In this document: one piece after another, positions 4,784 through 30,017 of the stretch | Layout: every line of letters begins with the position of its first letter | Numbering within the stretch: the first letter of the stretch is position 1 | Virus record (IMG/VR): IMGVR_UViG_3300046001_005293 | Location: 1 to 39,808 of that record | From: a virus | DNA: 39,808 nucleotides | Direction: 5' to 3' (one strand) | Program-made: the position numbers and the translations under genes | Notes under the pieces: model-generated | The model's input: only the letters and a program-made list of their open reading frames with translations | Told to the model about the DNA's origin: nothing | Databases searched by the model: none

Positions 4784-5212
4784 TTAAATAAAATCTCGAC
4801 GAAAGAATTTAGCTAGTATGTTGTCATTATATGAATTAGCACCTAATAAACAATCGCTTGTGCATTGGTAGTGTACTTCAAAGTAAGTAAGTTGTTTTTT
4901 GGTTTTACATAAACGTAAAATAAGGCATTCAAAATGTTCTGATCCTAATTCTTTAACGTCTTGGATTAGTTCTTTATTTGAACCCCAATAATCTTTCCAA
5001 TTACTTTCTTTAATAACTAATTTAGTTGAGGGTTTTTTACCACGAGCTGTGGGTAGTGCGGCTAATTCTTTCTTACCTAATTTAACATTAGTATTATGGA
5101 AGAATGATTTCTTTCCAATATAGAATTTTCCATTTGTCAGGTTTGTAATTTTATAAACAAAGCCTGTGTAGTCTTCGGGGTTATAAGTATCCCCGCATAT
5201 CCATTTATTCAT
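4784..5212 (-). CDS. GIY-YIG domain endonuclease, free-standing
   Basis: 142 aa. The signature is split as GFVYKITN (residues 18-25) and KFYIGKK (31-37), followed by a lysine-rich segment and WKDYWGSN (73-80). The candidate catalytic Glu is in TYFEVHYQ (about 109-116). This matches small GIY-YIG proteins of T4-like phages, some of which act as homing endonucleases or genome-processing nucleases. There is no zinc-finger or DNA-recognition tail, so target specificity cannot be judged. It sits between structural genes and the primase, with 16 nt to the upstream gene. Confidence 0.85.
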   Translation of the reverse strand: MNKWICGDTYNPEDYTGFVYKITNLTNGKFYIGKKSFFHNTNVKLGKKELAALPTARGKKPSTKLVIKESNWKDYWGSNKELIQDVKELGSEHFECLILRLCKTKKQLTYFEVHYQCTSDCLLGANSYNDNILAKFFRRDFI

Positions 5213-6074: not shown

Positions 6075-6833
6075 TTAAATTCCTAAACATCCAAGATATG
6101 TAATATTTGTTATATATCCATTATCATCGATTTGACAAGCAGAAGGTAGACTTAAAAACCATGCTCCCATTGCATACCATTGATCCCCCCCAACAAGTGG
6201 ATTATAATTTCCAAAACCATCTAATCGATAAATTCTAGCCCCTACAACAATACCAGGAGGATTTACAGTATAAATCCAACCTCCATTAAACCCAAGTGTA
6301 TTAAATGTTACACAAGCTTGATAAGCCGCTGAGTCTCCTAATGTTGTTCCAAATGATGAATAATTAGGAGGAGCACTAGCAGATGGTGTTCTTGTTATAG
6401 AAGGTGTTGGTGTTGGTGAATTTGATATGTTTGATGTTCTAGATGGTGTAATCGTTACTGTTGGTGTTCTTGTTATTGATGGTGGTGGTGTAAAACTAGG
6501 AGTAACAGATGGTGTTAATGTTATTGATGGTGTTATTGATGGTGATACCGTTATTGATGGTGTTCTAGTTGGTGTAATTGATATTGATGGTGTAATAGAA
6601 GGTGATACTGAAGGGAATGGAATATTATTATCAGTAAAACAACCATAAGATACATCAAAAACATCTACAGATGATGATGGTATTCCATCGGGAAAGGTTA
6701 CTGTAAAACCATTAACTAATTCGTATTTTGGTATATTGGAAGCATATAGATTTAATCCACTGCTTCCTGATAAGTAAATATCAAAGGGACCATTAGAATT
6801 TCCTTGAGTGTAATATATTATATATGTTGGCAT
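6075..6833 (-). CDS. Adhesin or fibre protein with Pro/Thr/Ser repeat stalk
   Basis: 252 aa in three parts. Residues 1-70 form a compact domain containing GPFDIYLSGSS. Residues about 73-157 are a low-complexity stalk of TPSIT/TPSV-type repeats. Residues 158-252 form a C-terminal knob with YQACVTF, GGWIYTVNPPG, DQWYAMGAWFL and SACQIDDNGYIT. The layout (anchor, stiff stalk, knob) suggests a receptor-binding fibre. The stalk matches those of the proteins at 6857-9367 and 15240-16844. A TATTTATA box ends 8 nt before the ATG. Whether the Ser/Thr residues are glycosylated cannot be seen. Confidence 0.85.
   Translation of the reverse strand: MPTYIIYYTQGNSNGPFDIYLSGSSGLNLYASNIPKYELVNGFTVTFPDGIPSSSVDVFDVSYGCFTDNNIPFPSVSPSITPSISITPTRTPSITVSPSITPSITLTPSVTPSFTPPPSITRTPTVTITPSRTSNISNSPTPTPSITRTPSASAPPNYSSFGTTLGDSAAYQACVTFNTLGFNGGWIYTVNPPGIVVGARIYRLDGFGNYNPLVGGDQWYAMGAWFLSLPSACQIDDNGYITNITYLGCLGI
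6363..6617 (-). repeat. P/T/S stalk-coding repeat block
   Basis: Encodes residues 73-157 of the 252-aa adhesin; same unit type as the other stalks but more diverged. Confidence 0.8.
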
Positions 6834-6841
6834 ATTTTAAT

Positions 6842-6849
6842 TATAAATA
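6842..6849 (-). promoter_or_regulatory. TATTTATA box (candidate late promoter)
   Basis: Coding-strand AATATTTATA, 8 nt before the ATG of the stalked adhesin at 6833. Confidence 0.45.
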
Positions 6850-6856
6850 TTATTTA

Positions 6857-9367
6857 TTAAGTACATGTTTGACAAGTTCCAAAAGCACTACCATTCCAGA
6901 ATCTAACATCAGCACCCGAACCACCACCAAGAGTAGCTATCCAAATAGAGCTAGCAACCCCCAAACAACTGACTCCATTACTATTTAGTAAAGTCATTCC
7001 TCCACTACATAAAAAATCTCCATCTAATAAACCAAAATCAGCAAAGTCTGCAAATTCTGAGCAAGCCCCAGTTTTAGTTACACCAAAGTTAAATGTAATA
7101 ATTTCACATGCTGGCCCTGATGGAGATGGTGTTATACTAGGGGTTGGTGTGACAGTTTTTGTTGGTGTTGGTGTTGGTGATGGTGATGGTGATAAACATA
7201 CAGTACAACTTGTTGTAAATGCTGACCCGTCCCAATATCGAACATCAAACCCATCTGAATACCACCCATCTTGAGGAGGAGTTAAGAAACAAATAACTCC
7301 ATCACTATCTCTTAATGAAGTAGCAGTACATAAATCAATACCACCAACAAAACAAACAAGTGCTGCTCCCCCAGTTCCAGAACAAGCTTGGTTACTGGTT
7401 TCTCCTATATTTAGTGAGGTTGGAGAGGATATAGTAGTTGTAGAAGGAGAAGGCGTTACACTAGGAGTAGCACTAATTGAAATTGTAGGCGTTACACTTG
7501 GAGTAGCACTGATTGTTATTGACGGTGTTATACTAGGAGTAGCACTAATTGAAATTGTTGGCGTTACTGTCGGTGTTATACTAATTGATATAGACGGAGT
7601 TATACTAATTGTAGGCGTTACACTAGGTGTTCTACTAATCGAAATAGTAGGTGTTATTGAAATTGATGGTGTTTGAGTCTTAGTTGGTGTTGGAGTTGGA
7701 CTTGAGGAAACACACCAATTACCACAAAGCGTAGCGGTTTCAATTGAAATATTTCCACCTAAAGTATTTGCCCTTACACAATTAGATGTATAAGTTCCAG
7801 CAGCATAGAAATCACAAATATTATCTCCACTAATACAATCTGTATAACAAACATACCCATCTGAAAGTGCTTCAAATTCATATTCATAACAATTACAATC
7901 AACCGGTGGCGAAGAAGACGGAGTTACACTAGGTGTTCTACTAATTGATATTGTAGGCGTTACACTTGGTGTTTTAGATGGTGTTACACTAGGAGACACT
8001 GTTATAGATGGCGTTACACTTGGAGTAGCTGATTTTGTAGGTGTTGGTGATGGTGAAGGACATAAATTAACACTTGTACAAGCAGCACAATCAGCATATA
8101 ATGTTCCTCCATCCCAAATAATAGTTGCTGGCCCTGGTGTTGGATCATCTCCTACACTATAACATTGACCAGTAGTGGTAACATACCACCCACCACCATA
8201 GGCTGCCGGTATAGATATTACTTGATACGATCCATCACAACATCCTTTAGCATCTCTAAATTCAAATGGTGTTGAAGGAGATGGTGTTGGTGTTACTGTT
8301 GGCGTTGCTGTTATTGATGGTGTAACTGTTGGTGTTATTGTTCTACTAGGTGTTAAGCTAGGAGTAACGGTAATTGATGGAGTTACTGTTATTGATGGTG
8401 TAACTGTTGGGCTAGGAGATAAACTAGGTGGATATGGGGGAGGAATTATAATTTTAATTTCAAATTCACAATCAGGATCAGTTACATTAACAGTAATACT
8501 AGCTGTGCTACTCATTAAGGGAGCACAATAAGAGCCTGTAGTAAAAAATGTATAAAATGTCTGATATGTTCCTATGCCTAGACCAGAGAAAGATAAAGAC
8601 ACGGAATTATTTGAACCCGTACTAAAGAAACTAGCATTACCTCCAAATATTTGAATTGAATTATTTACTAGTGTATTTCCTCGTAAATCATCATTTATTA
8701 ATGGATAAAAAGAAAATGTAGCAGGATTTAGATAATCATTTCTTACTATAGTGTAAACATCATCATAAGCAACTGCCGGTAAAACAAATACATTCTGATA
8801 AGTTTGACTTGTAATAACAATAGTACCTTCAGGATAAAATATATTACCTACAAAAATAGGAGTAGGACCACTAAAATTATCATAAATATTTCCTTTACCA
8901 TCATCATAAAAACTATATTGAGACGATGACATTTGAAATGAATATGGTAAAACCTTATTACCATAAGCATCCGGAGATATCTGAATTACCCTAATAGTTT
9001 CATTTGCTCCTGTAGGAAAATATGAAATAAAAGCAGGATCGTTATTAAAATTAAAAAACGAAGCCGATGGATGTTGACTGCTAGCAGATAAATAATGAAT
9101 AGAAGAAGCCAAGGAAGCCGTATTTAGACTTCCTGAGTATTGATGATAAAATAACTGATTAATTTGTCTATAGGTTAACCTATCGTAATGTGTATTAGTC
9201 GAAGGCTCATTACCCGGATTAAAAGAATTAGTATAGTTAGTCCCATTATACACTGAAATATAAGGATCAGTAGATGGAATAGGACAGTAGTTAAAATTCC
9301 AAGTTTTATTGGCTATAACGGGTACTGTTATAACATCTGATGATTTTAACTGTTTGAATGATCCCAT
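6857..9367 (-). CDS. Large multi-knob tail adhesin with four P/T/S stalks
   Basis: 836 aa. Residues 1-305 form a beta-rich N-terminal domain, probably the virion anchor. Four P/T/S repeat stalks follow (about 308-366, 437-487, 555-646 and 725-752), alternating with four Cys-rich knobs (367-436, 488-554, 647-724 and 753-836). Knobs 3 and 4 end alike (DVRYWDGSAF..CTVC and DVRFWNGSAF..CQTC), and knob 1 has IIWDGGTLYADCAAC, so the knobs are diverged duplicates of one module. A long flexible host-receptor-binding fibre is the best reading. No catalytic motif or chaperone domain is seen. Confidence 0.88.
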   Translation of the reverse strand: MGSFKQLKSSDVITVPVIANKTWNFNYCPIPSTDPYISVYNGTNYTNSFNPGNEPSTNTHYDRLTYRQINQLFYHQYSGSLNTASLASSIHYLSASSQHPSASFFNFNNDPAFISYFPTGANETIRVIQISPDAYGNKVLPYSFQMSSSQYSFYDDGKGNIYDNFSGPTPIFVGNIFYPEGTIVITSQTYQNVFVLPAVAYDDVYTIVRNDYLNPATFSFYPLINDDLRGNTLVNNSIQIFGGNASFFSTGSNNSVSLSFSGLGIGTYQTFYTFFTTGSYCAPLMSSTASITVNVTDPDCEFEIKIIIPPPYPPSLSPSPTVTPSITVTPSITVTPSLTPSRTITPTVTPSITATPTVTPTPSPSTPFEFRDAKGCCDGSYQVISIPAAYGGGWYVTTTGQCYSVGDDPTPGPATIIWDGGTLYADCAACTSVNLCPSPSPTPTKSATPSVTPSITVSPSVTPSKTPSVTPTISISRTPSVTPSSSPPVDCNCYEYEFEALSDGYVCYTDCISGDNICDFYAAGTYTSNCVRANTLGGNISIETATLCGNWCVSSSPTPTPTKTQTPSISITPTISISRTPSVTPTISITPSISISITPTVTPTISISATPSITPSITISATPSVTPTISISATPSVTPSPSTTTISSPTSLNIGETSNQACSGTGGAALVCFVGGIDLCTATSLRDSDGVICFLTPPQDGWYSDGFDVRYWDGSAFTTSCTVCLSPSPSPTPTPTKTVTPTPSITPSPSGPACEIITFNFGVTKTGACSEFADFADFGLLDGDFLCSGGMTLLNSNGVSCLGVASSIWIATLGGGSGADVRFWNGSAFGTCQTCT
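7112..8446 (-). repeat. Four P/T/S stalk-coding repeat blocks
   Basis: Blocks at about 8270-8446, 7907-8059, 7430-7705 and 7112-7195 share the same degenerate unit with the array at 15525-16046, separated by Cys-rich knob modules. Confidence 0.8.
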
Positions 9368-15239: not shown

Positions 15240-16844
15240 TTAAAGACATACACCAACACTACCATTTATTGTACCTACTGGAGTAATCCTTTGATTTGTT
15301 GTCAATGTATTGGTTAAGTCATCACAAAAAAGAGCATAATAATCACCATCACCAGTAAAAGTTATTGTACCTGCTGGATTTGTATAAATTTCTGAGGTAG
15401 TTGTTGCAGTAGTATTTCCTCCATCAATAGTAGTATTAGTGACATAAACTGTGTTTGAAATAGGAAGACTACAGGCATTAGACTCATCTGAAAGATTTGA
15501 TATTAAAAATTCTTTCAACAATATTGCTGGTGGTTCAGAAGAAGACGGTGTTATACTAGGAGTAACACTTACTGTTATTGTAGGTGTTATACTAGGAGTA
15601 GACGAAATCGATATTGATGGTGTTACACTTGGTGTTGCACTAATTGAAATTGTAGGCGTTATACTAGGAGTAGACGAAATCGATATTGATGGTGTTACAC
15701 TTGGTGTTGCACTAATTGAAATTGTAGGCGTTACACTAGGAGTAGCACTGATTGTTATTGACGGTGTTACACTTGGAGTAGACGAAATCGATATTGACGG
15801 TGTTATACTAGGAGTAGACGAAATCGATATTGACGGTGTTATACTAGGAGTAGCACTTACTGAATTTCCTGGTGATGCACTAGGAGTAACACTTACTGAA
15901 ATTGTTGGTGTTACACTAGGAGTAATAGTTACACTAGGAGTAACACTGACTGTTATAGATGGTGTTACACTAGGGGTAACAGTTACACTAGGAGTAATAG
16001 TTACACTAGGAGTAACACTTATTGATGGTGTTACTGGATAAGAAGGACCAGCAGATGGGTTAATTAATTGATTTAAATTGCTATATTGGGTAGGTACTAC
16101 ATCTTTAAATTCTAAATCAATATTAAAATTAGGTCCTTTTAAATAAGGTTGAGGTAAAGGAGTAATTACTTTACTTAAACTAAGGTCATAGATATAAGGA
16201 TTAACTATCTCTTCTACAATCCAAAATTTATCTTTTAATGTAATATTAGATGGAAGTGCTTCGTATAATTTAAATAATAAACTTGCTTCTCCTAAAGCAT
16301 TTACTTCACTTAATACATTAACTGCTACTACTTGGTTATTATTACCAAAATTAAGTATAACGTAATAATAATAAGGAACAGCCAATTGCTTATCAGCAAA
16401 ATTACTAGCAACATCAATTAAAGCAATATCATCTAACTCAGTAGAGCCTACTCTTAATTCAGTTCGGTCTGATGATATTTGGGATATAAAGAGTTGGGAA
16501 CTAAAAGGCTCTCCTGATACTTTTCTAAAGAAATTATATCTAGAGGTAACTTCACCGGATTCATATCCTAAATTTTCAATATCCTGGATTGGGTCTATTT
16601 CTAGTGTAGGGAGATAACTTTGGGAATAACCGTAATTTGAAGGTAATTTATATGAATTATAGTTATAATTTGAATTTAATACATTTCCTCCTAGATCAAA
16701 TACAAAGTATTCAACATAGTCTTCTGGTTTCCCGAAGGTTTCTTGTTGTACAATAGGAAGAAGTAGTTGTTCATCCTGTAAATCATAACGATTTACTCGG
16801 CTTGTATCTAAAACTTGTCCTATTATTTTTATATTATCTGCCAT
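15240..16844 (-). CDS. Fibre or adhesin with 36-bp-repeat P/T/S stalk
   Basis: 534 aa. Residues 1-266 form a folded N-terminal domain (NIKIIGQVLDTSRVNRYDLQ; YYYYVILNFGNNNQVVAVN), probably the virion anchor. Residues 267-440 are a P/T/S stalk. From about 332 to 427 it is a 12-residue repeat of the form PS(I/V)TP(S/T)I(S/T)(I/V)S(A/S)T, eight units, encoded by near-identical 36-bp DNA units. Residues 441-534 form a C-terminal knob with three Cys. The design parallels the adhesins at 6075 and 6857, so all three probably form receptor-binding fibres. Confidence 0.87.
   Translation of the reverse strand: MADNIKIIGQVLDTSRVNRYDLQDEQLLLPIVQQETFGKPEDYVEYFVFDLGGNVLNSNYNYNSYKLPSNYGYSQSYLPTLEIDPIQDIENLGYESGEVTSRYNFFRKVSGEPFSSQLFISQISSDRTELRVGSTELDDIALIDVASNFADKQLAVPYYYYVILNFGNNNQVVAVNVLSEVNALGEASLLFKLYEALPSNITLKDKFWIVEEIVNPYIYDLSLSKVITPLPQPYLKGPNFNIDLEFKDVVPTQYSNLNQLINPSAGPSYPVTPSISVTPSVTITPSVTVTPSVTPSITVSVTPSVTITPSVTPTISVSVTPSASPGNSVSATPSITPSISISSTPSITPSISISSTPSVTPSITISATPSVTPTISISATPSVTPSISISSTPSITPTISISATPSVTPSISISSTPSITPTITVSVTPSITPSSSEPPAILLKEFLISNLSDESNACSLPISNTVYVTNTTIDGGNTTATTTSEIYTNPAGTITFTGDGDYYALFCDDLTNTLTTNQRITPVGTINGSVGVCL
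15525..16046 (-). repeat. Stalk-coding repeat array, 36-bp core units
   Basis: Encodes residues 267-440 of the fibre. From about 15564 to 15851 the DNA repeats in 36-bp units (+ strand ATACTAGGAGTAGACGAAAT type), eight in a row with few differences. Coding and in frame, not CRISPR. Confidence 0.85.
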
Positions 16845-27291: not shown

Positions 27292-27389
27292 TTTCGGCTT
27301 TGAAAGAAATTTTGTAGAGAGAAGGAGTTCACCCCCTCGGATTTTGTGGCTAAAGGGGTTATAATGATTTTTATGGTATATTTGTATAT

Positions 27390-27700
27390 ATGAAATGCGC
27401 GGGCGGGTTTTTGTCGTTTATCTGTAGGGACGGGGCCTTCTCACATTTTTGTAGCGCAGCGTCGATGGACCGCAATTACCGTGGGGCCATTTCGCCGTCG
27501 CAGCGCGCGCGCAGCGCTAGCGGATCAGAAAAGACCTTCCTCCCTCCAGAGCCCCAGATCCGGCGATCTTTTTTGTCGCAGGCCCGGCTCCCGTGTCTCT
27601 TTTATTTCAGGCATGCGCGCGCGCGCTAGATTAACGAAGGCGACCATTTGGCCGCCTCTATCGTGTTGTGTGTTGTTGTTTAGTGTACGCGCGTATCCTA
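27390..27700. other. GC-rich gene-poor island
   Basis: Visibly GC-rich in an otherwise very AT-rich window, with two alternating CG tracts (about 27497-27512 and 27614-27626) and an 8-bp hairpin AGGCGGCC / GGTCGCCT at 27638-27657. Open frames on both strands have unnatural compositions and no support. I see no confident gene. It may be a structured RNA, an origin or inserted DNA. Confidence 0.6.
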
Positions 27701-27785: not shown

Positions 27786-27956
27786 TTATTGCTTTAGCAT
27801 GTTTAATTTATCAATCGTACGTAATGCATCTTCTTCATCGCATACAGGTATCATTTGGTTTTCTCCTAACACATACCATCCGTCGTATCGTTCTTCTGTT
27901 CTTAATTCGCCTGTTAAATCGAATTCTTCTCCGTCACTAAATTTTAATGTAGACAT
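27786..27956 (-). CDS. Short conserved-type phage protein, 56 aa
   Basis: Read from the minus strand: ATG at 27954-27956, stop TAA at 27786-27788. It begins MSTLKFSDGEEFDLTGELRT, continues YDGWYVLGENQMIPV and ends in a short helix. I recall small proteins of the type MSTLKFSDG...DGxYVVGxGxLIPV in related phages. A full promoter lies at 28000-28033 and the leader has the AACAATTAA elements common to its neighbours. It is the last gene read after the C-free tract. Function unknown. Confidence 0.75.
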   Translation of the reverse strand: MSTLKFSDGEEFDLTGELRTEERYDGWYVLGENQMIPVCDEEDALRTIDKLNMLKQ

Positions 27957-27999
27957 AATTTTAATTGTTTTAATTGTTAATTGTTGTTTTAAACTCAGA

Positions 28000-28033
28000 T
28001 ATAAAATTACAAACTATAAATCTATAAACCAAA
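28000..28033 (-). promoter_or_regulatory. Host-type promoter of the 56-aa gene
   Basis: -7 TAATTTTATA at 28000-28009, 20-nt spacer, TTTG at 28030-28033. Lies inside the C-free tract. Confidence 0.8.
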
Positions 28034-28076
28034 CTAAATATAAATTATTTTCAAACTATTTCATCATTTATACTTA
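28032..28076 (-). repeat. 45-bp direct repeat, copy 1
   Basis: Identical to 28407-28451. Lies just upstream of the promoter of the 56-aa gene, covering its -33 edge. G-free on the + strand. Confidence 0.9.
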
Positions 28077-28083
28077 TACTAAA

Positions 28084-28335
28084 TTATTCTTCTATAAACC
28101 ACATTAATATATCTTCACCTACTAATTCAAAATTAATATCACCATTAAATTCTTTATTTACAATCATTCCATTTTTTAACCTATTCTTTAACTCAATCCA
28201 ATCATCTACAAACTCATCATCATAATTTTCTCTATCATTATACTCCTCATCTTCAAATAAACATTCAACTCTTTCTCCACTTTCATACTCATTATCATTT
28301 CCACAACCAAATAAATCAATTAAAATTTCTTCCAT
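28084..28335 (-). CDS. Unknown protein encoded without any C on the coding strand (83 aa)
   Basis: 83 aa, very acidic (LFGCGNDNEYESGERVECLF, then many Asp/Glu). The coding strand has no cytosine from start to stop, so every amino acid that needs C (Ala, Pro, Thr, Gln, His) is absent. The frame is intact, the start has a promoter (28375-28408) and an A-rich leader, and the leader is also C-free. No domain recognised. With neither G-C pairs nor a C-containing hairpin it cannot have a normal terminator, so read-through into the 56-aa gene is likely. Confidence 0.8.
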   Translation of the reverse strand: MEEILIDLFGCGNDNEYESGERVECLFEDEEYNDRENYDDEFVDDWIELKNRLKNGMIVNKEFNGDINFELVGEDILMWFIEE

Positions 28336-28374
28336 TTTTTCTAATTTTTAATTATTAATATTATTTTTTAACAC

Positions 28375-28408
28375 TATAAAATTACAACTTTAATTCAACA
28401 TAACCTAA
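28375..28408 (-). promoter_or_regulatory. Host-type promoter of the 83-aa C-free gene
   Basis: -7 TAATTTTATA at 28375-28384, 20-nt spacer, TTAG in place of TTTG at 28405-28408. C-free. Confidence 0.65.
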
Positions 28409-28451
28409 CTAAATATAAATTATTTTCAAACTATTTCATCATTTATACTTA
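28407..28451 (-). repeat. 45-bp direct repeat, copy 2
   Basis: Identical to 28032-28076, in the same position relative to the next promoter (28375-28408). Confidence 0.9.
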
Positions 28452-28463
28452 CATTATTTATTT

Positions 28464-28880
28464 TTATTCTTCATCATCATTTAATCCATTCTCTTCTTTA
28501 TACCCATCAATTATCATCTCCTTAATATCATCACTTAAACTACTTTCATTTAATAATTCAATTAACCCATCTAAACACTCATAACTAAAATCACCTCTAT
28601 AACACCCACCCCAATCACACATCATATTATCAAATAAAAATATCTCATTTAAAAACCCACTTACACTCTCACAACCAACACTTCCCATACTACAACCATA
28701 CCTTCCCCCACTAACATATAATCTAAAATCAACAAACTTCTCCAACATTTTACTCCACTCATCTCTATCCATTCTACTATCATCCCCAACACCTAAATCA
28801 TTCCAACAATACTTCTCATAAACATTCTCTAATTCTAACTTAACTTCTTTACCTAACATTTTACCTAAATACTTTTCCAT
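28464..28880 (-). CDS. Unknown Cys/Gly-rich protein encoded without any C (138 aa)
   Basis: 138 aa with no Ala, Pro, Thr, Gln or His, because its coding strand contains no cytosine. The sequence is otherwise protein-like: a charged helix, then FRLYVSGGRYGCSMGSVGCE (about 52-71), FDNMMCDWGGCYRGDFSYEC (about 83-102) and a helical acidic end. Seven cysteines suggest metal binding or a compact fold. The promoter at 28920-28953 has exact TTTG with a 20-nt spacer to TAATTTTATA. Function unknown. The intact long frame argues against recent random hypermutation. Confidence 0.83.
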   Translation of the reverse strand: MEKYLGKMLGKEVKLELENVYEKYCWNDLGVGDDSRMDRDEWSKMLEKFVDFRLYVSGGRYGCSMGSVGCESVSGFLNEIFLFDNMMCDWGGCYRGDFSYECLDGLIELLNESSLSDDIKEMIIDGYKEENGLNDDEE

Positions 28881-28919
28881 AACACTAATTTTTTAATTAT
28901 TATTTAATTATTTTAACAC

Positions 28920-28953
28920 TATAAAATTAACATATTAATTCCATATAAACAAA
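28920..28953 (-). promoter_or_regulatory. Host-type promoter of the 138-aa C-free gene
   Basis: -7 TAATTTTATA at 28920-28929, 20-nt spacer, TTTG at 28950-28953. C-free. Confidence 0.8.
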
Positions 28954-28987
28954 CAAATCACAAAATATTTTTAATATATTATTAGAC

Positions 28988-29012
28988 AAAAAAAGACTCA
29001 ATTAAGAGTCTT
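28988..29012 (-). terminator. Intrinsic terminator overlapping a stop codon
   Basis: Stem AAGACTC / GAGTCTT then seven T. The stop codon of the 66-aa gene is in the loop. Confidence 0.8.
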
Positions 29013-29202
29013 CTAATTTTAATAATTTAATTTCACTTTCACTTTCATAAACATTGTAATTATTAAAAAACCACTTTTTAACTGTTTCAAATGAACCATC
29101 AAATAATTCTTGTGAGTACATATCTTTAATTAATTCATCTAAATCATTAACTTCAAAAGTGTCATTTACGTCTTCAATACTAATTACTAAATAATTTTTC
29201 AT
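29002..29202 (-). CDS. Unknown small acidic protein (66 aa)
   Basis: 66 aa, acidic (NYLVISIEDVNDTFEVNDLD), with one Gln and two Thr, so it is not fully C-free but is C-poor (about nine C in 200 nt of coding strand). The last codons (GAA GAC TCT TAA) form the 5' arm of its own terminator (28988-29012), so stop codon and hairpin overlap. Its promoter (29243-29276) holds the terminator of the upstream gene in its spacer. Leader ends ..TTAAAGTTATG. No family recognised. Confidence 0.8.
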   Translation of the reverse strand: MKNYLVISIEDVNDTFEVNDLDELIKDMYSQELFDGSFETVKKWFFNNYNVYESESEIKLLKLEDS

Positions 29203-29291: not shown

Positions 29292-29531
29292 TTATTTCTC
29301 ACCCTCAAAAATAACATATTTTATTATATCATTTTCTAACATTAAATTTCTAACATTATTAATTTTATCATTTAATAAATCTTTACTTTTAAAGAAACTT
29401 TTAAAATTATACATTCTATCATTTCTTTCAAATTCAATATTATTTTCTAATAAAACATTCTCACATTTCTCACAATCTTTTAAACCTTTTTTACTACCAT
29501 AAAAGCAAAACCCAAAACTTAATTTTTTCAT
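29292..29531 (-). CDS. Unknown small Cys-containing protein, C-poor gene (79 aa)
   Basis: 79 aa, basic at the start (KKLSFGFCFYGSKKGLKDCE) with a C-x2-C (CEKC). It lacks Ala, Pro, Thr, Gln and His, like the two proteins at 28084 and 28464. The coding strand has only two C, both in codons where C is synonymous (TTC and TGC). The promoter at 29568-29600 has exact TTTG and a 19-nt spacer; the leader ends ..TTAAGGTTATG. An 11-bp stem terminator with two mismatches follows at 29252-29279. Function unknown. Confidence 0.8.
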   Translation of the reverse strand: MKKLSFGFCFYGSKKGLKDCEKCENVLLENNIEFERNDRMYNFKSFFKSKDLLNDKINNVRNLMLENDIIKYVIFEGEK

Positions 29532-29711: not shown

Positions 29712-30017
29712 TTAACTCCAAATTTCCAAATCAGTTAAATTATATTTTAATTTAATTTCATTATAAACATTATCACGATCATTATCATTATTTACAGTAT
29801 AATGATCATTATTATTTATAACAACTATACAACTTAACTCACTATAAACTATATCAGCTAATATACTCTCTAAACAGCTACCATCACAATCTTTTAATTG
29901 TAACTCACAACAGTAAACATTATTTACTGCATCGTCAATTTCACAATTAAACTTTTTACTGTTAAATTTATTAACATCGTTTAAATTGTCTGTAAAATTC
30001 ATTAATTTAATTTCCAT
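29712..30017 (-). CDS. Unknown Asn/Asp-rich protein (101 aa)
   Basis: 101 aa, rich in Asn and Asp, with six Cys (NCE, CCE, DCDGSC, LSC). It starts MEIKLMNFTDNLNDVNKFNS and ends in TDLEIWS. It may bind a metal, but no known pattern is recognised. The promoter at 30060-30093 is a perfect match (TTTG, 20 nt, TATCTTTATA). The terminator at 29673-29697 follows the stop. Leader ends ..TTAAGGTTATG. A monocistronic unit. Confidence 0.82.
   Translation of the reverse strand: MEIKLMNFTDNLNDVNKFNSKKFNCEIDDAVNNVYCCELQLKDCDGSCLESILADIVYSELSCIVVINNNDHYTVNNDNDRDNVYNEIKLKYNLTDLEIWS

Follow-up and report, generated by a model that had tools for sequence, protein, structure and literature searches.

What kind of constraint removes one base completely from 986 nt of phage DNA that carries two genes together with their leaders and promoters? 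This question is raised by the window, the whole 39,808-nucleotide stretch of IMG/VR virus record IMGVR_UViG_3300046001_005293 analyzed here, in which a first-pass annotation had reported a long tract without G on the + strand. Recounting returned exactly the same boundaries, with no G from position 27999 to position 28984 (A 377, T 378, C 231). The minus strand encodes both open reading frames (ORFs) in the tract, which means that their coding strand and mRNA contain no C. On sequence grounds, the tract is a cluster of cytosine-free (C-free) transcription units that recur in small gene families of related Bacteroidota T4-like phages and are maintained there.

Extent and uniqueness of the tract

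Elsewhere in the window, the + strand has its next-longest G-free runs (131 and 110 nt) next to the tract. A scan of the whole 165,861-base contig of the window phage found the tract to be unique, with every other run at or below 131 nt. In order-2 Markov simulations of equal length and composition, the longest C-free run averaged 63 nt and reached at most 90 nt (n = 60). The finding of many equal tracts explained by general skew had been named in advance as a result that would remove the special status of the region. It was not obtained: full-length genomes have at most one such region each, and no such region is present in three of the relatives (G005, G006, and G009). Chance and general skew are ruled out by the Markov maximum of 90 nt and the restriction to one locus per genome. 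An identical tract is present in IMG/VR contigs IMGVR_3300046004_001494 and IMGVR_3300046000_008568 (100% identity across 20,414 bases), one of which is the 165,861-base contig. Assembly error is unlikely given three identical contigs and the recurrence of such tracts in other phages, and it was rejected as an explanation. The tract call thus stood, but it had left unmentioned that the adjacent upstream genes are also partly depleted of C, with C-free runs of 131, 110, 78, 76, and 68 nt; the downstream gene is normal.

Organization of the tract and its neighbors

Small genes in a row surround the tract, and several of them are equipped with a separate leader and a TAnnTTTATA promoter-like box. 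The tract holds two ORFs and the leaders and promoters of both, and it also takes in the next gene's promoter as far as its upstream half. Read in the direction of transcription, the tract opens just after a terminator-like stem (GACTCTTAATTGAGTCTTTTTTTGTC, minus strand, about 28985 to 29012) that bounds it on the 5' side, and it closes at the predicted transcription start site (TSS) of the next gene. The first ORF (28464 to 28880, minus strand) encodes 138 amino acids with no C and contains no Pro, His, Gln, Thr, or Ala. Its C-free leader and −7 box (TTAATTTTATA) span 28881 to 28925 on the same strand, and C-free sequence takes the place there of the ACAACAATT motif found in the leaders of normal genes. 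The second ORF (28084 to 28335, minus strand) encodes 83 amino acids, also with no C, and belongs to a family with an FxCGNDNEY motif; its C-free leader and −7 box (GTAATTTTATA) span 28336 to 28384 on the minus strand. The next downstream gene (27786 to 27956, minus strand, start codon at 27956) encodes a 56-aa protein beginning with MSTLKFSDGEEFDL and has a normal C content, and the end of the tract coincides with its predicted TSS region. Three minus-strand ORFs precede the tract: a C-poor 66-aa ORF (MKNYLVI..., 29002 to 29202), homologues of which adjoin the C-free blocks of loci L063, L026, and L115; a nearly C-free 79-aa ORF of the same class as the tract genes (29292 to 29531, 2 C); and a moderately C-poor 101-aa ORF (29712 to 30017), where the 5' gradient in C content begins.

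The 56-aa protein is a member of a conserved small family (MSxLxFxDGExFDL...) that is also encoded at L026 6098-6268, L034 3305-3508, and L021 1484-1678 and that sits at the C-free cluster or some distance downstream of it in several phages. Just downstream of the tract, positions 27300 to 27700 of the window are GC-rich and contain CGCGCG runs but no clear gene on the coding strand, and C-rich stretches occur at a similar position in relatives, e.g., at about 7650-8700 in L063.

The phage and its relatives

The window phage is T4-like, with a baseplate wedge protein (PHROG match) and a protein that we interpret as a late sigma factor of the gp55 type. This sigma-like protein has relatives in Flavobacterium phage immuto (42% identity) and on contigs binned with Winogradskyella and Flavobacteriales. 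The hosts are probably Flavobacteriales, and a phage of the gp55 type probably uses the host polymerase for transcription. Among seven full-length genomes compared, a C-free or C-poor locus is found in the window phage (G001), G003, G007, and immuto (W01; C-poor gene at 68286-68639 of its record), and it is weak in the last two; the other three are the genomes without any C-free tract.

The region at 66463 to 77963 of G001 encodes NrdA- and NrdB-like proteins, FolE, QueD, QueE, QueC, and a DpdA-like protein, a gene set that probably provides 7-deazaguanine DNA modification in the window phage. FolE and QueD were assigned by Pfam, QueC by PF06508, and QueE as a radical SAM protein, while the DpdA-like call was made by resemblance alone (phrog_19058), with no TGT Pfam match. 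A PNK-like AAA_33 kinase and an RNA ligase are encoded at 120326 to 121858 of G001, and of the other six genomes in the comparison, G003 alone has this pair.

Recurrence of cytosine-free genes in other phages

A search with the sigma-like protein yielded 80 loci, 78 of which are not from the window phage. In 9 of these 78 loci, the coding strand has a C-free run that is 150 nt or longer: L063 (1665 nt), L026 (696 nt), L034 (597 nt), L021 (435 nt), L028 (331 nt), L037 (303 nt, cut by the contig end), L042 (256 nt), L016 (163 nt), and L014 (151 nt). No opposite-strand run in the sigma-anchored loci is longer than 131 nt. Further searches added L106 to L111, L114 (977 nt), L115, L122, L123, L175 (1354 nt), L186 to L188 (335 nt), and L190. 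All of the C-free units found are on the coding strand, and their genome position is often shared between related T4-like phages. The census was anchored on homology and on two leader-anchored patterns, so it is incomplete and the true spread may be wider. Across 2066 ORFs, C content is bimodal, with about 40 genes below 2%, few between 2 and 6%, and most between 10 and 20%. Some of the low-C genes represent one phage recovered in several samples, which leaves 21 distinct proteins encoded with less than 1.2% C.

The C-free state occurs in separate phages for five or more gene families. A comparison of homologues of the 138- and 83-aa proteins, which the first-pass annotation had suggested, found C-free homologues of both in several phages and C-poor ones of the former. 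L114 and L175 encode C-free members of the 138-aa family (53 and 40% identity, respectively), and C-poor members occur in L179 to L181 (10 C in 348 nt) and in L182 (14 C in 282 nt). The L179 homologue follows another gene immediately in an operon and has acquired some C, and its matched sequence is still without Pro, His, Gln, or Ala. C-free homologues of the 83-aa protein are encoded in L063, L175, L186 (71% identity), and L190, and every member examined of a third family (84 aa, RVNWVKCK motif) has 0 to 2 C. Two C-free proteins of L063 have C-rich relatives, one of 63 aa matching L026 2270-2581 (42% identity, 12.8% C) and one of 52 aa matching a relative in L041 (48% identity, 11.3% C). The C-free state is therefore not tied to a fold, and families can enter and leave it. 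A C-free 92-aa gene is 96% identical between L021 (605-883) and L028 (6741-7019), compared to a mean of 63% for the other genes, which makes recent transfer likely. Patchy spread and high similarity suggest that the C-free genes are mobile accessory genes.

The C-free proteins had no Pfam or PHROG assignment, and their structural models (mean pLDDT of 85.6 and 74.8) gave no significant fold match. Three C-free protein queries found no homologues in cultured phages, the immuto gene matched only its own group, the 84-aa family had no member in the host genomes searched, and no known RNA element was matched in Rfam.

Probable exclusion of cytosine at the level of the transcript

The boundaries of isolated units are informative about the level at which C is excluded. 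In L186, a lone C-free gene lies in C-rich DNA, and its C-free run extends from the promoter box to the loop of the terminator stem. The C-free stretches of L111, L107, L110, and L028, also set in C-rich surroundings, likewise open at or next to the −7 box or TSS, as predicted from promoter boxes, and close in the terminator stem. Leaders in the window phage contain 0 C in 105 nt for C-free genes versus 32 C in 527 nt for normal genes (P = 0.005). Throughout leader and coding sequence, C is either absent from these units or present mostly where an amino acid demands it. These observations bear out the proposal that the constraint acts on nucleotides rather than on one protein, and codon or tRNA avoidance alone is ruled out since the leaders are C-free too. 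The C content of the 500 nt upstream of five strict clusters is 4.6, 6.0, 11.0, 5.4, and 4.8%, and that of the 500 nt downstream is a normal 19.0, 17.8, 14.2, 13.4, and 17.8%. Selection on the transcript is well supported by these sequence patterns. In the window, L021, L034, and L063, the C-free tract extends over the promoter DNA of the cluster as well, which leaves some room for DNA-level causes; read-through between units without terminators would account for C-free promoter DNA.

Homologue comparisons show that the C-free state is actively maintained, with gains of C purged. Only 7 of 215 nucleotide differences between C-free homologues of different phages involve C, compared to 37 to 43% in normal genes of the same phage pairs, and conserved two-fold NNY codons differ in 0 of 179 cases, compared to 16 to 26% in normal genes (the pair comparisons behind the two counts overlap in part). 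The window genes differ from those of L114 and L063 at 206 positions, none with C. In a subset of nearly C-free genes, about 35 residual C's are unavoidable and 7 are avoidable, versus 40% avoidable in normal genes.

The 21 C-free genes keep Ser at 5.4% compared to 5.35%, all of it encoded by AGT (which rises from 1.6 to 5.4%), and they keep Arg through AGR (AGA/AGG) and Leu through TTR (TTA). Pro, Gln, Ala, Thr, and His fall to 0 to 0.2%, and Glu, Asp, Asn, Gly, Cys, Met, and Trp increase. At the second codon position, T rises only from 29.9 to 32.8% and G from 13.6 to 22.3%. Strand-specific C-to-T hypermutation by a deaminase during transcription would track transcripts, as the boundaries do, and spare the template strand, but its losses should follow C to T and raise Ile, Val, Leu, and Phe. 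We found no such rise in Ile (0.99-fold), Val (1.08-fold), or Leu (0.95-fold). The codon pattern requires many changes other than C to T, so a C-to-T process alone cannot produce it; hypermutation is refuted as the sole cause and is hardly credible otherwise, and a bisulfite-like artifact is ruled out by the same codon compensation. The earlier argument against random hypermutation, based on intact frames, is thereby strengthened.

Expression during a cytidine-directed block as the preferred explanation

We tentatively favor selection for expression while CTP is depleted or poisoned, or under another cytidine-directed block that is likely a host defense, and we rate this at somewhat below an even chance. 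The harm from a C would arise during RNA synthesis: if CTP were depleted or replaced by a chain-terminating CTP analogue, each C would be a possible stop for RNA polymerase, and a gene without C could still be transcribed. The C-free units would then probably be early genes that work while the block is active, and they may counter the block itself. Since polymerase must cross the upstream DNA to reach the needed genes, upstream DNA would be C-poor, and C downstream would be harmless and at normal levels, as seen at the five strict clusters. Among the meanings listed in the first-pass annotation, transcripts that need no CTP fit best, in our inference, with a start at the TSS, an end at the terminator, C-free leaders, and a gradient on the 5' side. 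A host defense is the likely source of the block because the genes are small, acidic, patchily distributed, and apparently moving between phages. The more specific proposal that mobile C-free genes, transcribable without CTP, counter a host defense that depletes or poisons CTP is possible but doubtful. CTP depletion or poisoning would be the simplest cause. Prokaryotic viperins (SAND enzymes) make ddh-nucleotides, e.g., ddhCTP, and such a defense would poison C positions in RNA; a link between viperins and C-free units is hypothetical. Microbial SAND/viperin enzymes are reported as inhibitors of T7 RNA polymerase (PMC9642334), which counts against the CTP model given that a gp55-type phage probably uses host polymerase. 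It also counts against the model that no CTP-targeting defense was found or tied to these phages, whose assignment to Flavobacteriales hosts is itself just probable, and that C is present in the majority of phage genes, among them late genes, so that the block would need to be defeated early.

Attack on C in RNA by a nuclease, deaminase, or RNA-modifying activity of host or phage, to which C-free mRNAs would be immune, is unlikely but fits the transcript-level boundaries and the leader constraint equally well. The C's of terminators sit in stems and could be protected, and C-free units are present in both genomes that encode the RNA ligase and PNK-like kinase (G001 and G003), with G005, G006, and G009 lacking the units as well as the two enzymes. 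This association with RNA repair involves only two genomes, too few for a conclusion, and the weak C-free units of G007 and W01 occur in the absence of the repair pair. Cleavage downstream of a gene should also be harmful, yet C returns abruptly there. We know of no defense RNase with plain C specificity. A separate proposal, which we consider improbable, is that 7-deazaguanine in the template DNA slows RNA polymerase, so that the most needed early genes use a G-free template and thus a C-free mRNA. The window phage has FolE, QueD, QueE, QueC, and the DpdA-like protein, 7 of 8 large relatives have QueC, and a template-strand effect would begin at the TSS. However, most of the pathway is also present in G005, G006, and G009 despite their lack of a C-free tract, the DpdA assignment rests on resemblance, and QueC was rejected as a discriminating factor because it occurs with and without C-free tracts. 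According to the literature (PMC6884629), 7-deazaguanine replaces only about 30% of G, and the polymerases that phages need are not inhibited by 7-deazaguanine bases, which counts against a template effect.

Less probable again is that C-free RNA was chosen for better translation, being unstructured or tRNA sparing. G-C pairs are impossible in such RNA and five amino acids (Pro, His, Gln, Thr, and Ala) are avoided, but selection for this benefit should neither clear leaders and spacers of all C nor come to an abrupt stop, and a conserved motif in the leaders has lost its C. A replication origin of the R-loop type, extremely asymmetric between strands, would draw on the general tendency of G without C on the displaced strand to favor R-loops and on the uniqueness of the tract in its genome. 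It is very improbable: an origin should be a single noncoding or promoter-proximal element per genome, and about 5 kb separates two C-free genes in L111, L123 likewise has separate C-free genes, and L186 has one short isolated unit. Moreover, the encoded proteins are conserved while their genes stay C-free, and sister phages lack the tract. The first-pass annotation had listed both an R-loop origin and loss of palindromic restriction sites, and both fit poorly with isolated single-gene units, with two separate units in one phage, and with an asymmetry that always accompanies transcription; avoidance of restriction sites would lack strand specificity. A T4-type C-modifying pathway was rejected after no PF00303 match was found in three records.

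Relation to known systems

Cytosine-free transcription units resemble the base-composition adaptation of phage genomes (GC skew and codon bias) in that nucleotide use is shaped by selection or mutation, but the known cases are gradual and genome-wide, whereas here one base is gone from single transcription units in normal DNA. Phages with 7-deazaguanine (9g, CAjan, and Rosebush) use FolE, QueD, QueE, QueC, and DpdA, and the window phage has the four preQ0 enzymes plus the DpdA-like protein; no C-free genes are reported for those phages in the parts of PMC6884629 consulted, and the pathway is largely shared with relatives that have no tract. Early accessory (anti-defense) clusters of T4-like phages are also made up of early genes that are small, acidic, and fast-changing and that carry promoters of their own, but C-free transcripts are not a known property of theirs. 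The literature searched, whose coverage leaves out most subscription journals, contained no report of C-free genes. To our knowledge, a transcript free of one base under lasting selection, and this in several gene families, is undescribed, and C-free transcription units would be a new class of sequence feature. They point to a pressure on cytidine in RNA, or on the template, during infection of Bacteroidota. Since sequence is enough to recognize the C-free state, this state could be used to find genes under this pressure and then the defense behind it. The units also show the reach of protein sequence flexibility, as working genes can do without Pro, His, Gln, Thr, and Ala.

Other sequence features

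In L063, two copies of a hairpin, GGGTGGTCAG(A/G)AATGATCACC (4784-4810 and 6778-6808), flank the C-free block. A near-identical hairpin closes the C-free block of L175 (2215-2238), so this element could serve recombination. The L175 block also contains a run of about 12 G between two genes (1949-1960). Elsewhere in the window, positions 6075 to 9367 and 15240 to 16844 encode Pro/Ser/Thr-rich repeats of the PSVTPSIT type in putative tail proteins.
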